A stretch of DNA of 64,000 nt from Bacillota bacterium (GTDB lineage Bacteria > Bacillota > SHA-98 > UBA4971). Position numbers and translations under genes: made by a program. Shown piece by piece: positions 47,337-53,166 of this stretch. The DNA lies in the NCBI GenBank assembly GCA_024653485.1, contig JANLFY010000005.1:62001-126000 (forward strand). Reading direction: 5' to 3'. Numbering within the stretch: the stretch's first letter is position 1; each line of letters opens with the position of its first letter. The notes under the pieces were generated by a model. The model worked only from the letters and a program-made list of their open reading frames with translations. It searched no databases and was not told the origin of the DNA.

Positions 47337-48584
47337 TCACCTGCGGTCGGCTCCGGCTCGTCGCCATGATGCGCGTAGCCGTTTGGATATGACACCACCG
47401 CCTACCACGACGTCCCCGTCGTAGAACACCACTGATTGCCCGGGCGTGGCGGCTCTCTGTGGGGTTACGAAGCGCACCTCCACCGTCTCCGCCGCCTCGG
47501 CCGGGCCCGCTTCGCCCACTTCATCACGGAGGGGGCCCACTTGACTTAGCTCAGGGCCTGCTCGCTCGTCCCACCGCGCCGCGGCCTCTGACACCGGCGC
47601 CACCGTCGCGCTGACGCCCGGAGTGCGGTACCTGATCTTGGCCTCCACTCTTATCGGTGCTTCGAGCCTGTCGAAGGGTATCCAGTTGAGGCCTTGCGCC
47701 ACGAGCCCCGCGTCCAGGAGATCGCCGGCTTTGCCCACTACCACGGCGTTCTCGGCCGGGTCGATGTCGACGACGTACAATGGCTCCGCCGAGGCGATCC
47801 CGAGGCCTTTACGCTGGCCGATCGTATAGAACGCCACGCCCTCGTGCTCGCCAACGACGTTCCCATCGAGATCGAGGATGGGCCCGTGCTTTGCGATCCC
47901 TGGGAGGTATTCTCTCAGGAAGCGCCTGTAGTCGTTGTCCGGAATGAAGCATATCTCCTGGCTCTCACGCTTTTCCGCAACGGGAAGCCCAAGAGACGCT
48001 GCCATGCCGCGGACCTCGTCCTTGGTGAAGTCGCCGATTGGAAAGAGCGTGTGGGCAAGCTCGTCCTGGGTCATCGAGTACAGTACGTACGTCTGATCCT
48101 TTTGCGGATCCTTGGCTCTGAGCAGCAGCCACCGCCCCGTCTCGGGGTCCTTGCGAACCCTGGCGTAATGTCCCGTGGCGACGAAGGCGGCTCCCATCTC
48201 TCTTGCCTTGCGGAGAAGATGCCCGAACTTGATGCGCTGGTTGCACCTTATGCAGGGATTCGGCGTGCGGCCGGATGCGTACTCTCGCGCGAAGTATGTT
48301 ATTACCTCTTCCTCAAACCTCTCCCGGAAATTCAGCACATAATACGGAATGCCTATAATGGCGGCTACCCGGCGCGCGTCCTCGATCGCTGCCAGCGAGC
48401 AGCATCCGCCTTCGCTCTCGCCTACCGGCAGAAACCCCGGCCACACCTGCATGGTCGCACCGATGACCTCGAAGCCCCTCTCTTTGAGCACGGCCGCCGC
48501 GACGGAGCTGTCGACCCCGCCGCTCATCGCGACGAGCACGCGCTCCCGCCCGCCCACCTTCTCAGCCCCAGGCGCGCGACTCAC
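47337..48584 (-). CDS. mnmA: tRNA-specific 2-thiouridylase MnmA
   Basis: Introduces 2-thiouridine at position 34 of tRNA Lys/Glu/Gln using sulfur delivered from the cysteine desulfurase. The PP-loop AMSGGVDSSVAAAVLKE is at the N-terminus. The catalytic cysteine pair is in TPNPCIRCNQRIKFG and SQEICFIPDNDYRRFL, and TGHYARV and YTIGQRKGLGI are family blocks. A 30-residue Ala/Glu-rich insertion lies near the C-terminus before EVRFVTPQRAATPGQSVVFY. GTG 48584 overlaps the iscU stop (GTGA); GTG 48557 would match the usual N-terminus more closely. Directly behind iscS-iscU, it is placed to receive sulfur from IscS (YrvO-MnmA pairing in Bacillus). Confidence 0.95.
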   Translation of the reverse strand: MSRAPGAEKVGGRERVLVAMSGGVDSSVAAAVLKERGFEVIGATMQVWPGFLPVGESEGGCCSLAAIEDARRVAAIIGIPYYVLNFRERFEEEVITYFAREYASGRTPNPCIRCNQRIKFGHLLRKAREMGAAFVATGHYARVRKDPETGRWLLLRAKDPQKDQTYVLYSMTQDELAHTLFPIGDFTKDEVRGMAASLGLPVAEKRESQEICFIPDNDYRRFLREYLPGIAKHGPILDLDGNVVGEHEGVAFYTIGQRKGLGIASAEPLYVVDIDPAENAVVVGKAGDLLDAGLVAQGLNWIPFDRLEAPIRVEAKIRYRTPGVSATVAPVSEAAARWDERAGPELSQVGPLRDEVGEAGPAEAAETVEVRFVTPQRAATPGQSVVFYDGDVVVGGGVISKRLRASWRRAGADRR

Positions 48585-49006
48585 CGACTCTCGCCAGCCA
48601 CAAGCCTCTTCTCGCCCTCGGGGGCGACGGCGCGCTTTTTCGCCAAGTAGTCCTCGATTGCCTTGTGGAGCGCGTCCGCCGCAAGGTTCGAGCAGTGCAT
48701 CTTGTTGGCGGGGAGTCCGTCCAGGGCCTCCGCCACCGCCTTGTTGGATATCTCCATGGCCTCTTCGAGCGTCTTGCCCTTGACCAGCTCCGTCACCATG
48801 CTGCTCGTGGCAATGGCCGCGCCGCACCCGAAGGTCTTGAACTTGGCCTCTACTATCCTGTTGTCCTCAACCTTTATGGACAGCTTCATGACATCGCCAC
48901 AGATCGGATTGCCAACCATACCCACTCCGTCGGGATTCTCCACTTCCCCCACGTTCCTTGGGTTCGTGAAGTGGTCCATCACCTTCTGTGAGTACACGCG
49001 CTTCAT
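48581..49006 (-). CDS. iscU: Fe-S cluster scaffold protein IscU/NifU-type
   Basis: Scaffold on which Fe-S clusters are assembled, 141 residues. Three cluster cysteines are present, in GNPICGDVMKLS, FKTFGCGAAIATSS and NKMHCSNLAADALHKAI. The IscU-type LPANKMHCS region (LPPVK in proteobacteria) and the absence of an SufU-type insertion mark it as the NifU N-terminal/IscU class usual in Clostridia. The C-terminal tail (AKKRAVAPEGEKRLVAGESR) is a short unconserved extension. ATG 49006 has GGAGAGG upstream. The gene lies between iscS and mnmA, forming an Rrf2-iscS-iscU set. Confidence 0.95.
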   Translation of the reverse strand: MKRVYSQKVMDHFTNPRNVGEVENPDGVGMVGNPICGDVMKLSIKVEDNRIVEAKFKTFGCGAAIATSSMVTELVKGKTLEEAMEISNKAVAEALDGLPANKMHCSNLAADALHKAIEDYLAKKRAVAPEGEKRLVAGESR

Positions 49007-49224
49007 CCCCTCTCCTCTCCGAGTCGCGACACGGGCAGACCGCGACGAATCTCGCGCCACGAAGCGGCCATCGTCCGCTCCGCTGCGATCGCGGGCACTT
49101 CCCGCATCCGCCCCGTCGCCGACCTTCGCTCCACCGTCGTCCTACGCCATGTCCCGCCGCGCCCCATCGCATCGAGCCGCTGGCTGCTGGCAAGCGCCGG
49201 GACGTGCCGCCACGCATGCGCCCG

Positions 49225-50448
49225 CTAGTGCTTGGCGGCGGGCTCGGGCGCTCCGGCGCACTTGTCGCAAGCGCCTGTCGCCGATCCGAGCTCTTGTCCG
49301 AACGGGGACATCGCCCGCAGCTTCTCCACTATCGCCGGCAAGTGCCCGAGGACGTAGTCAACTTCCTCTTCCGTGTTGTAGCGGCCTAGCGTCAGCCTGA
49401 GCGAGCCGTGCGCGACTTCGTGGGGAACGCCCATGGCTAGCAGCACGTGAGATGGCTCGAGCGACCCCGACGTGCACGCGGACCCGCTCGACCCGCACAC
49501 GCCAAGCATGTCTAGGTTCAGAAGAAGCGATTCGCCCTCGATGAACTCGAAGCAGAAGCTCGCGTTTCCTGGGAGCCGCCTGGTCGGATGTCCGTTCAGC
49601 CTCACATGCCCGATGCGGTTCATTACCCCTTGAATCAGACGGTCGCGCAACCGGGATACCCGCTCCATCTCGGCGTCCATTTCCTCGGCGGCGAGCTCGA
49701 GCGCTTTCGCGAGTCCCACGATGCCCGCCACGTTCTCGGTGCCCGCCCTTCTGTTGCGTTCCTGTGCGCCGCCGTCGATATACCGCTCCATCCGCACGCC
49801 CCGCCTGACGTAGAGCGCCCCAACACCCTTTGGGCCGTAGAACTTGTGTGCTGAGAGAGACAGCAGGTCCACGCCCAGGCGCTTCACGTCGATGGGTATG
49901 TGCCCCGCGGTCTGGACGGCGTCGGTGTGGAGGTAAACGCCGTGCCTTTTCGCGATCTCCGCTATCTCCTCGATGGGCTCGATCGTGCCCACCTCGTTGT
50001 TGGCGTGCATTATCGAGATGAGAATCGTCTTGTCGGTTATGGCCGCCTCAACGTCAGCGGGGTCGACCATCCCGTATGCGTCCACTGGGAGGTATGTCGC
50101 GCGGAACCCGTGCTTTTCCAGGCGCTTCACGCTATCGAGGACCGCGTGGTGCTCGATGGACGACGTTATTATGTGGTTGCCCCTCTCCCTGTTGGCGAAG
50201 GCCACCCCTTTGATCGCCGTGTTGTCCGCCTCGGTGCCGCTCCCCGTGAATACTATCTCCTTCGGGTCAGCTCCCAGGATCGCCGCGACCCTTTCGCGCG
50301 CTCCATCCAAGGCGGCTCTTGAAACGCGGGCTATCCCGTAAATGCTCGACGGGTTTCCGTACTCGTCGCCAAGGTACGGCAACATAGCTTGGACCACTTC
50401 CCGGCGGGGCTGGGTGGTGGCCGCATTGTCAAAGTATATAGTCCTCAC
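49225..50448 (-). CDS. iscS: cysteine desulfurase IscS/NifS with CxxC tail
   Basis: PLP enzyme converting cysteine to alanine and enzyme-bound persulfide for Fe-S clusters and tRNA thiolation. The N-terminus [15 protein letters not shown] is followed by [13 protein letters not shown]. The PLP Lys is in [21 protein letters not shown] (near 206) and the active-site Cys in [20 protein letters not shown] (near 330). At 407 residues it carries an unusual C-terminal tail after the family end, containing [18 protein letters not shown] with a C-x-x-C pair. The tail could bind metal or relay sulfur. No promoter is evident in the 176 bp upstream, so it probably depends on the Rrf2 gene promoter at 51221-51249. 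Confidence 0.96.
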
Positions 50449-50624: not shown

Positions 50625-51146
50625 TCAAGAGACGCCCTCCGATCGGGCCCGGGCATCCCCTCGTGTTCCCACGGATACGCTAGCGCAGCCCGGCGCCGCT
50701 TTGCACGATCCGCACCGTCCGGCGGCGAATCCCGCAGCCTCGTCGCAGAGGTCACTGAGGCTGATGGAGTCAAGCACCCTGTTCATGCAGTCCTTGAGCT
50801 TCTTCCACACGAGACGCATAGTGCACTCATCCGCTCGCTCGCACGTTTCCGCCGGGTCTCCGTCGGCCACGCATTCAGCTGGGTCTATGGGTCCCTCGAG
50901 CACCCTCACTATGTCGCCGATGGTGATCTGCGACGGAGGCCTCGCGAGCTCGTAGCCGCCCTGCGCACCTCGCGAGCTCGTCACGAGGCCGGCGCGCCGC
51001 AAGCCCGCCATGAGCTGCTCGAGGTAGTGCTCGGAGACATCCTGACGCTCCGCGGTGGATTTCAGGGAAACGGGGCCTTCACCGTAGCGGAGGGCAAGGT
51101 CGTACATTGCCCGCACGCCGTACCTGCCCCGCGTGGACAGCCTCAC
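50625..51146 (-). CDS. Rrf2 family regulator, IscR/CymR-like, Fe-S type
   Basis: Winged-helix regulator (173 residues) controlling the isc genes or sulfur metabolism. The N-terminus MRLSTRGRYGVRAMYDLALRYG and the recognition-helix region SEHYLEQLMAGLRRAGLVTSSRGAQGGYELARPP are typical. Three cysteines (about 92, 102, 108) in ECVADGDPAETCERADEC match the [2Fe-2S]-binding region of IscR, which CymR lacks, so an Fe-S sensing role is favoured. The C-terminus carries five further cysteines, including CGSCKAAPGC, beyond the usual family end. The start is GTG 51146 with GGGAGG 9 nt upstream; GTG 51155 is too close to it. Its promoter overlaps a palindrome at 51188-51212, implying autoregulation. Confidence 0.9.
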   Translation of the reverse strand: MRLSTRGRYGVRAMYDLALRYGEGPVSLKSTAERQDVSEHYLEQLMAGLRRAGLVTSSRGAQGGYELARPPSQITIGDIVRVLEGPIDPAECVADGDPAETCERADECTMRLVWKKLKDCMNRVLDSISLSDLCDEAAGFAAGRCGSCKAAPGCASVSVGTRGDARARSEGVS

Positions 51147-51187: not shown

Positions 51188-51249
51188 AATTCCGACTAAA
51201 CTCGTTGGGATTTCAACACCACTATAGCATGATCGGGGAGTCGTGTCAA
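51188..51249 (-). promoter_or_regulatory. promoter and Rrf2-type operator of the isc operon
   Basis: Minus strand TTGACA (51244-51249), 17-nt spacer, TATAGT (51221-51226). A 25-bp imperfect palindrome at 51188-51212 (AATTCCGAC - 7 nt - GTTGGGATT, 7 of 9 paired) covers the expected start site. The AAT-x-CC-x-AC half-site resembles operators known for CymR/IscR regulators. Confidence 0.7.
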
Positions 51250-51362: not shown

Positions 51363-52703
51363 CTATTCGTTCGCTCTCACTGCCCCTCGCCATTTGGCGA
51401 GACGGTCCGCGATCTGCCTTTCGTACCCGTTCGACGACGGTTCATAGTACACCCTACCGAGGAGGGTATCGGGAAGATACTGCTGCGTTACGAAGTGACC
51501 TGGGAAGTCATGGGGATACTTGTACCCGACGCCGTGGCCAAGCCGAGCGGCACTCCCGTACGAGGCGTCCCTTAGGTGAGCAGGCACCTCTCCCGACCGT
51601 TCTTTCCTCACGTCCTCGGTCGCGCGCCCGATGGCGACACACGCTGCATTGCTCTTCGGGGCGGTGGCAACGTAGATGGCGGCCTGGGCCAAGGGCAGCT
51701 TTGCCTCGGGCCATCCCACAAACCTCACTGCCCAGCATGCGGCACACGCGACGAGAAGGGCGTGCGGGTCCGCACACCCCACGTCCTCGGCTGCCTGTAC
51801 CAGTATTCGCCTGGCGATGAATTCGGGGTCCTCGCCAGCTTCCACCATCCGTGCAAGCCAGTAAATCGCCGCATCAGGGTCTGATCCCCTCATGCTCTTG
51901 ATGAAGGCGGATATTGTGTCGTAGTGCGCGTCGCCGTCGCGATCGTATGCGAGAGCGCGTCTCTGGATGGAGTCCTCCGCCACCTGGAGAGTGATCCGCC
52001 GGACGCCGCGCGCGTCAGGAGGCGTGGTGAGAACCGCGAGCTCGATGGCGTTCAAAGCGGATCGCGCGTCGCCGTTCGCCATGCTGACTATGTGATCGAA
52101 GGCGTCATCATCGATCTCAACGGACAACCCTCCCAATCCGCGCTCGCTGTCTTCGAGGGCACGGCGGAGGATAGCGGCAATGTCCGCATTTGTGAGCGGT
52201 TCCAGCCGGAACACCCGCGACCTGGACACGAGGGGCGCGTTGACCTCGAAGAAGGGGTTCTCCGTGGTGGCTCCGATGAAGATGACGATTCCGTTCTCCA
52301 CCGCGGGAAGGAGCACGTCTTGCTGGGATCGGTTGAACCTGTGAACCTCGTCGATGAACAGAATGGTTCTCTTCCCGTGCATCCCCAGCCTTTGCTCCGC
52401 CTCGGCCGCGACCCGTCTTATGTCGGCTACGCCTGCCGTGACCGCGTTGACCTGCTCGAAGTGGGCTCTTGTCATGTTCGCGATCACCATTGCAAGGGTT
52501 GTCTTGCCGGTCCCCGGCGGCCCATATAGGATTATGGACGCAAGCCGGTCCGCCTCGATGGCCCTCCGAAGAAGCCTGCCAGGGCCAATGATGTGATCTT
52601 GTCCGACGAACTCGTCCAGGTTCCTCGGACGCATCCGCGCAGCGAGCGGCGCATCGCGCCGCAACGTCTCCCTAGCCTCGCGACCGAACATGTCGACGTC
52701 CAC
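51363..52703 (-). CDS. rarA: replication-associated recombination protein RarA (MgsA)
   Basis: AAA+ ATPase of the RarA/MgsA/WRNIP1 family, working at stalled replication forks. Features of the 446-residue protein: PLAARMRPRNLDEFVGQDHIIG at the N-terminus, Walker A LYGPPGTGKTTLA, Walker B ILFIDEVHRFNRSQQDVLLPAVE, sensor 1 FIGATTENPFFEVN and sensor 2 region NGDARSALNAIELA. The C-terminal tetramerisation part contains MRGSDPDAAIYWLARMVEAGEDPEFIARR and a YKYPHDFPGHFVTQQYLPD block. I chose GTG 52703 (GGAGG upstream); GTG 52715 abuts the Shine-Dalgarno. It lies between the candidate 6S RNA and the Rrf2 regulator, as in B. subtilis. A weak promoter (TTGAAA-17-AACAAT) is visible about 90 nt upstream. 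Confidence 0.95.
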   Translation of the reverse strand: MDVDMFGREARETLRRDAPLAARMRPRNLDEFVGQDHIIGPGRLLRRAIEADRLASIILYGPPGTGKTTLAMVIANMTRAHFEQVNAVTAGVADIRRVAAEAEQRLGMHGKRTILFIDEVHRFNRSQQDVLLPAVENGIVIFIGATTENPFFEVNAPLVSRSRVFRLEPLTNADIAAILRRALEDSERGLGGLSVEIDDDAFDHIVSMANGDARSALNAIELAVLTTPPDARGVRRITLQVAEDSIQRRALAYDRDGDAHYDTISAFIKSMRGSDPDAAIYWLARMVEAGEDPEFIARRILVQAAEDVGCADPHALLVACAACWAVRFVGWPEAKLPLAQAAIYVATAPKSNAACVAIGRATEDVRKERSGEVPAHLRDASYGSAARLGHGVGYKYPHDFPGHFVTQQYLPDTLLGRVYYEPSSNGYERQIADRLAKWRGAVRANE

Positions 52704-52952
52704 GTCCGGATACACCTCCGGTAGCCTCGTCCGGTAGCCCCCGATCGGGCGCTGCTTCTCGTGAGCCGCGTCGGGTGGGGCGAGCGTGTGTTCCCATTGT
52801 CATTGTTGCACACCAGAGCCCGTGTTTCAATGCACCGCACGCTACACGCGCACGCTTCCGACGCGAGGCTTGCGGAGGGTCTTGAGTGGCAGGGATTACC
52901 GCGGCGCGGTGTGCCGCGGCACGGCCTTCGACCATCGCGTGAGCGCAACGAG

Positions 52953-53166
52953 AAGAAAAAGAAGACCCCACCGTGCCGTCTTACCGGTAACATCTCATAT
53001 CCCTGCGCCCTGCAGGTGGGTGCCCTCCCAGGTGGTTTACGTGTCCGCACCACCGCGGCATACGCGCCGCACCCGGAGGCCGGGCTCCCTTTCATATGGT
53101 GTTGGAACAGAAGTTACCAGCACCACATCGCACACGGTAGGGTCCATGGCTCTTCATTTGTGCACC
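52953..53166 (-). ncRNA. candidate 6S RNA (structured transcript between aspS and rarA)
   Basis: A promoter TTGAAA (53196-53201), 17 nt, TATCAT (53173-53178) begins at the aspS stop codon. A T-rich tract (TTCTTTTTCTT, 52952-52963 on the minus strand) ends the unit. The sequence just before that tract (52964-52976) pairs with 53132-53144 over 13 bp including two wobbles. Inside it, 53113-53120 pairs with 52984-52991 (8 bp, one wobble) and 53094-53098 with 52996-53000. This leaves an asymmetric internal loop of 14 against 4 nt. A rod with closed ends and a central bubble, about 190-215 nt long, in the aspS-rarA gap where B. subtilis has 6S-1 RNA, fits 6S RNA. The terminal part contains several small hairpins. 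I cannot confirm conserved 6S bases. Confidence 0.5.

Follow-up and report, generated by a model that had tools for sequence, protein, structure and literature searches.

A Probably Autoregulated IscR/CymR-Type Rrf2 Regulator With a Cysteine-Rich Tail at the isc Locus of a Bacillota Bacterium

Results

Genomic Context of the Regulator

On the minus strand of the window (the whole stretch of 64,000 nucleotides of Bacillota DNA analyzed here), the genes run in the order rarA-rrf2-iscS-iscU-mnmA, and rrf2, the gene for an Rrf2-type transcriptional regulator, is preceded by a promoter and a putative operator. The regulator gene is present in all 13 genomes of what we term the family, which spans two genera (six genomes of the window's genus and seven of a sister genus). 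The features of the locus are as follows, with counts for the 13 family members and the 132 other proteins of the comparison where these apply:

47337..48827 (open reading frame limits; the domain begins further in), minus strand, mnmA/trmU, tRNA 2-thiouridine synthase (NF001138, above cut-off)
48581..49060 (open reading frame limits; the true start may be further in), minus strand, iscU/nifU scaffold (TIGR03419, above cut-off)
49225..50448, minus strand, iscS/nifS cysteine desulfurase with a C-terminal C-x2-C tail of its own
50625..51146, minus strand, Rrf2 regulator of 173 aa with the IscR/CymR fold, GTG start at 51146 behind GGGAGGGTG
50685..50747, minus strand, codons C134 to C154, the Cys-rich C-terminal region, containing C145-x2-C148 and C148-x5-C154
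50787..50789, minus strand, codon C120, specific to the family (Cys in 12/13 members and in 0/132 others)
50823..50873, minus strand, codons C92 to C108, with the putative Fe-S ligands C92, C102, and C108 (C-x9-C-x5-C)
51188..51212, minus strand, putative operator AATCCCAACGAGTTTAGTCGGAATT, an imperfect 25-bp palindrome with a conserved footprint
51221..51226, minus strand, -10 hexamer TATAGT, separated from the -35 hexamer by a 17-bp spacer
51244..51249, minus strand, -35 hexamer TTGACA, invariant in 13/13 family promoters
51363..52715, minus strand, rarA, the upstream neighbor

In all 13 family genomes, iscS lies downstream of the regulator, which is the first gene of the isc operon and has its own predicted operator. 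The original prediction had described the gene as syntenic with the Cys-poor CymR of Bacillus, and this is supported. iscS adjoins the CymR gene in 23 of 30 sampled loci; neighboring genes were recognized by short motifs in limited flanking DNA, such that a missing neighbor does not equate to an absent one. The 30 CymR loci are taken to represent Bacilli because the tree described below places the CymR proteins of B. subtilis and S. aureus in their midst. Separately, a 6S RNA is encoded between aspS and rarA (52961-53146, minus strand; RF00013, 94.2 bits against a gathering threshold of 46.4), the only match to Rfam at the gathering threshold in the window.

The regulator belongs to the Rrf2 superfamily (TIGR00738, 141.2 bits, above the cut-off of 73.3), and its scores for both equivalogs are below their cut-offs: 149.9 bits for CymR (NF047409, cut-off 195) and 126 bits for IscR (TIGR02010, cut-off 207.55). 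Its best sequence match in the PDB is the IscR of Thermincola potens (4cic, 158.1 bits). The AlphaFold model has a mean pLDDT of 83.7, with low values in the cluster loop and the tail, and adopts the winged-helix Rrf2 fold (Z 17.3-18.8 against 2y75, 3t8t, 4hf1, and 4cic). The matches to CymR of Bacilli, which shares this fold, reach Z 18.8 (2y75) and 17.3 (3t8r), and those to the IscR of E. coli and T. potens range from 16.5 to 17.7 (4cic: 17.3, rmsd 4.2), where values within one Z unit of each other count as tied. A second, distant Rrf2 protein occurs in the window's genome (contig C13, 5330-5773; L164); it also has three cysteines, is 28% identical to the regulator, and scores above the cut-off for the superfamily model alone.

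Promoter and Operator

The arrangement TTGACA-17-TATAGT upstream of the Rrf2 gene was borne out at its predicted position, and it is conserved in each of the 13 family promoters: in their alignment TTGACA does not vary, and the -10 element is TATAGT, TATATT, or TATCTT. Counted from a transcription start placed by inference near 51214, the 25-bp site extends from approximately +2 to +26, which would put the operator at, or just downstream of, the start of transcription. The symmetry of the site is imperfect, with 8 of 12 possible pairs formed. As at least eight pairs are formed by 0.45% of the 25-mers of the window, and another 25-mer in the same intergenic stretch (51243) likewise reaches eight, symmetry by itself was rejected as proof of an operator. 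A promoter (at most one mismatch per hexamer) with such a palindrome in register was found at one place in the window, compared with two occurrences in 20 mononucleotide-shuffled windows. We accept the operator because its footprint is conserved across relatives, which is decisive where symmetry is not. In the alignment of family promoters, both half-sites are conserved in their outer parts while the flanks vary, and a single genome (G008) deviates inside the left half-site. The predicted palindrome thus stands as a conserved site, its symmetry being weak evidence alone, and conservation in 13/13 family promoters supports its placement on the regulator's own promoter. The Rrf2 regulator probably acts at its own promoter via this DNA site.

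Beyond the family, a matrix built from the 13 operators was used to scan the 250 bp upstream of each orthologue, with the 99th percentile of 1,320 mononucleotide shuffles as the threshold. A site was found upstream of 75 of the 132 orthologues outside the family, comprising 74 of the 102 that have the three cluster cysteines (the other 28 have no site above threshold) and 1 of the 30 that lack them, counts which ignore the kinship of orthologues that are not phylogenetically independent. When the association of operator and cluster cysteines is reduced to phylogenetically independent pairs, one to four remain, without significance. The site could in principle be bound by another regulator, such as the second Rrf2 protein of the window's genome, which also carries three cysteines. 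This is very improbable, given that the site lies upstream of the isc-locus rrf2 gene in many Bacillota and that none was found upstream of that distant paralogue (best score -7.7).

A Candidate Second Target: cysE and cysK

A search of the six genomes of the window's genus, allowing at most two mismatches, matched only the rrf2 promoter, and the reversed-pattern control gave no match in any of the six. With the symmetric consensus and at most three mismatches, the only matches shared among these genomes are rrf2 (6/6) and cysE/cysK (5/6), the genome missing the latter being the window's own; controls gave one forward and one reverse match in one genome (G002) and none in the other five. Three further matches in this search are singletons not common to the genomes, all inside an open frame as printed. 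One singleton, in the window's genome (L269; contig C3, 87860-87884; three mismatches), lies upstream of the probable start of a gene read by eye as secD.

The cysE and cysK genes of the window's genus are divergently oriented (gene names at this target rest on curated NCBIfam cut-offs). The cysE promoters of the other five genomes (G001-G005) carry the site in AAACCC-type variants, 5 bp behind TATAAT, compared with a distance of 8 bp from the -10 element at rrf2. Their matrix scores range from 6.7 to 16.2, against a best background score of 2.3 in three 20-kb stretches, and in the window's genome one half of the cysE site has decayed and the score (-0.7) falls within background. A strong cysE match was also obtained in three of the seven sister-genus genomes (G007, G010, and G012), each with a related site upstream of cysE-cysK, the one in G010 being weaker, in a pattern search that is noisy in this genus (0 to 2 control hits per strand). 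A similar search of 12 distant genomes yielded 20 strand hits versus 15 control hits, several of the former being rrf2 promoters, so single matches in these genomes prove little. Among them, a distant genome with a three-Cys regulator (G040) has a zero-mismatch site from this noisy search approximately 24 bp upstream of a cysK open frame, with no promoter identified; a zero-mismatch match in another (G032, L255) was set aside, as it lies close to the end of a contig and no target gene could be read there. These sites suggest that in close relatives cysteine synthesis, via cysE/cysK, is probably under the control of the regulator as well, and this two-target regulon may not hold in the window's own species, where the cysE site is degenerate. 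A second conserved target was not foreseen in the original prediction and is new here.

Cysteine Content of the Regulator

The regulator has eight cysteines (at residues 92, 102, 108, 120, 134, 145, 148, and 154), in agreement with the claim of three IscR-like cysteines plus five more at the C-terminus. Comparisons were made among 145 nonredundant proteins (155 with identical copies included), drawn from 30 loci, the best 80 of 593, hand-picked regions, and the best 30 loci of a CymR-queried search, which favors Cys-free proteins in the sample; distant paralogues are also included (e.g., L158, L159, and L164). The three putative cluster ligands proved to be conserved, each being Cys in 13/13 family members and in 102/132 other proteins. 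They occur in equal counts across the set, with all three present in 115 proteins and the motif lacking in 30. We infer that the protein is an Fe-S regulator, and it probably senses iron-sulfur clusters. Like the window protein, E. coli IscR (4hf0, 4hf1, 4chu) combines the Rrf2 fold with three cluster cysteines; its ligands, as given in PMC8593673, are C92/C98/C104 plus His107, in contrast to the C-x9-C-x5-C spacing here and the Arg111 that occupies the His107 column in 13/13 family members (Lys in T. potens 4cic).

For the extra cysteines, the prediction fared unevenly. C134 is Cys in 13/13 family members and in 37/132 others, C145 in 12/13 family members, and C148 in 11/13, with His in one more. 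A tail C-x2-C behind the cluster motif is found in 11/13 family members and 0/132 proteins outside, and C120 is likewise a family feature, as listed above. The C-x5-C spacing, to which attention had also been drawn, is present in five of six members of the genus and in none of the seven of the sister genus, and was rejected as a conserved motif. In the only family member where C120 is missing (G006), C145 and C148 are missing as well, and another (G008) keeps C120 and C145 with His at position 148, a possible ligand. The co-variation of C120, C145, and C148, which amounts to one or two events, suggests a single four-ligand site. In the model, C120 lies in a well-modeled helix (residues 107-127), and beyond residue 141 the tail is without regular structure at low confidence (block means 53-59); its sequence is variable beyond C148.

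The cysteine desulfurase of the family also tends to end in cysteines: C-x1-2-C occurs in 11 of the 12 readable IscS tails (that of G012 is cut off) and in 8 of 61 IscS tails outside the family. The IscS of G006, the genome whose regulator is without its tail cysteines, has no cysteine in its own tail. A strict pairing of the two tails was rejected, as the 8 of 61 tails outside the family lack a partner, which leaves the joint absence in G006. Taken as a whole, the second set (C120, the tail C-x2-C, and the more common C134) may bind a metal or sense a thiol or persulfide state.

Relationship to CymR

CymR of Bacilli differs from the window protein in two respects: it is without the three cysteines in 28 of the 30 sampled loci, and it ends in [YF]M[FYL]YI in all 30, the window protein being the opposite on both counts. 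A terminal Ile peptide of this kind is described as the CysK-binding mark of CymR and CysE in two sources (PMC12895370, PMC4961446), and the docking-type peptide, [YFL][YH]I, is absent in 13/13 family members. Among the 145 proteins, 39 have both the three cluster cysteines and such a C-terminus (mostly MYYI or MFYI), 30 have the C-terminus without the cysteines, 65 have the cysteines alone, and 11 have the cysteines plus a C-x2-C tail. The presence of a CymR-type peptide in many three-Cys orthologues had not been foreseen; those with both features include proteins of Moorella mulderi (L045) and Desulfosporosinus acididurans (L042).

In a phylogenetic tree of 149 rows and 111 columns, in which 72 of 145 inner branches are open and deep support is weak, the CymR group (32 rows, support 94) is nested among three-Cys proteins, and the window's family forms a group of 13 rows (support 96). 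The tree was rooted by one long E. coli branch, for which a version of the sequence without its cysteines was used. The presence of the cluster cysteines requires four changes on this tree, and two Cys-free rows (L068 and L147) fall outside the CymR group. Of the two alternatives offered originally, an IscR-like replacement or the ancestral form, the latter is favored by the tree and by the counts of character states: vertical descent with loss of the cluster cysteines toward CymR fits better, within the weak deep support, and horizontal replacement is not supported by this tree. Two proteins within the CymR group (L246 from G079 and L248 from G058) retain all three cluster cysteines and end in FMFYI or YMFYI, which makes them possible intermediates. 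Elsewhere, a three-Cys Rrf2 protein with a YMYYI tail (L012; G015, contig C4) is encoded directly downstream of the apparent end of cysK, with no iscS recognized within 1.5 kb on either side.

Discussion

The reading that we favor, and consider likely, is that of an IscR/CymR-type Rrf2 repressor that governs the isc locus of Bacillota, its own gene included, and couples Fe-S assembly to cysteine supply; in this family its C-terminal tail is Cys-rich rather than of the CysK type. According to this reading, a dimer with an Fe-S cluster held by C92/C102/C108 would bind the site at 51188-51212, just downstream of the transcription start, and would keep rrf2-iscS-iscU(-mnmA) from being transcribed while clusters are abundant; repression would end once the cluster is lost. 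The same protein in the family would probably repress cysE/cysK too, such that the supply of sulfur is tuned jointly with the assembly of clusters. The promoter, the conservation of the operator, its presence at cysE/cysK in relatives, and the cysteine pattern are features of the sequences themselves, from which repression, the cluster, DNA binding, and the role of the tail are predicted.

The components of this reading have precedents. E. coli IscR autoregulates the isc operon. The Thermincola IscR (L019, L050) resembles the window protein in having three cluster cysteines and iscS next to its gene, and the T. potens protein is listed as a characterized cluster-binding regulator in PMC9338935 and is also cited in PMC5411485. 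An IscR-like regulator with a CymR-like motif is already known from the clostridial isc locus, and in C. acetobutylicum a division of labor between two paralogues has been proposed, with CAC1675 acting as IscR and CAC2236, beside cysK, as CymR; the same source reports that CymR controls cysteine-synthesis genes and that the IscR and CymR motifs are alike (PMC3828012). In C. perfringens, expression of rrf2-iscS-iscU-trmU, which has the same gene order, is reported to rise 3- to 6-fold on cysteine limitation (PMC2940859). Compared with T. potens IscR and the clostridial IscR (e.g., CAC1675), the Cys-rich tail, C120, and the candidate second target at cysE/cysK are particular to the window's family. 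The IscR/CymR-type family is known, and the Cys-rich tail is an unusual addition to it. According to a review, Fe-S assembly in Gram-positive bacteria has been the subject of very few studies (PMC8593673), and in our own search of the literature, made mostly without subscription papers, no paper was found on the Cys-rich tail of this family, on a cysE/cysK operator of a three-Cys isc-locus regulator, or on cluster cysteines and a CymR tail in one protein.

The regulator might instead be a CymR-type cysteine regulator without a functional cluster, in which the three cysteines form a thiol/redox switch or bind zinc, with cysteine or OAS as the signal. Such a protein would account for the CymR equivalog score being the best of the two, for a top fold match to B. 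subtilis CymR (though this is tied within one Z unit, with IscR next at 17.7), for the absence of the E. coli IscR His ligand, and for a cysteine-synthesis target in the relatives. We nonetheless judge it unlikely, as the family has no CysK-docking-like C-terminus in any of its 13 members, the three cysteines are retained or missing together across the 145 proteins, and the closest sequence in the PDB, T. potens IscR, is among the regulators listed as cluster-binding in PMC9338935.

A separate question, compatible with the favored account of the operator, is whether the extra cysteines are functionally neutral, the tail being disordered and Cys-rich by chance in one family, and here we see the matter as evenly balanced. 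The low-confidence, unstructured model of the tail, its variability beyond C148, the restriction of C-x5-C to one genus, and the two of 13 family members in which the tail is missing or altered are all in keeping with neutrality. C120, however, lies in a well-modeled helix and is nearly invariant in the family while being absent from the other 132 proteins; the single member without it has lost C145 and C148 too, and the other deviant retains C120 and C145 with a possible His ligand at 148, a pattern that is suggestive only, given the few independent events.

An autoregulated repressor of the isc locus could also be fitted into a broader evolutionary scheme, which we offer tentatively and regard as somewhat unlikely in its entirety. 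The isc-locus regulator of Bacillota would ancestrally have had two inputs, a three-Cys cluster and CysK via a Y-M-[YF]-Y-I peptide, and would have controlled both isc and cys genes. CymR would then have dropped the cluster, and the window's family would have dropped CysK docking and built a four-ligand site (C120, C134, C145, and C/H148) that may receive its load from the Cys tail of IscS or read that tail. If the regulator's own tail does bind metal or persulfide, it would represent a sensor element of a novel type. Descriptions of IscR and CymR usually treat the two as distinct regulators, the one a reader of Fe-S clusters and the other a reader of cysteine; here, one orthologous group spans both, and the origin of CymR, as well as a direct link between cysteine supply and cluster assembly in anaerobes, become testable in named organisms with both features.
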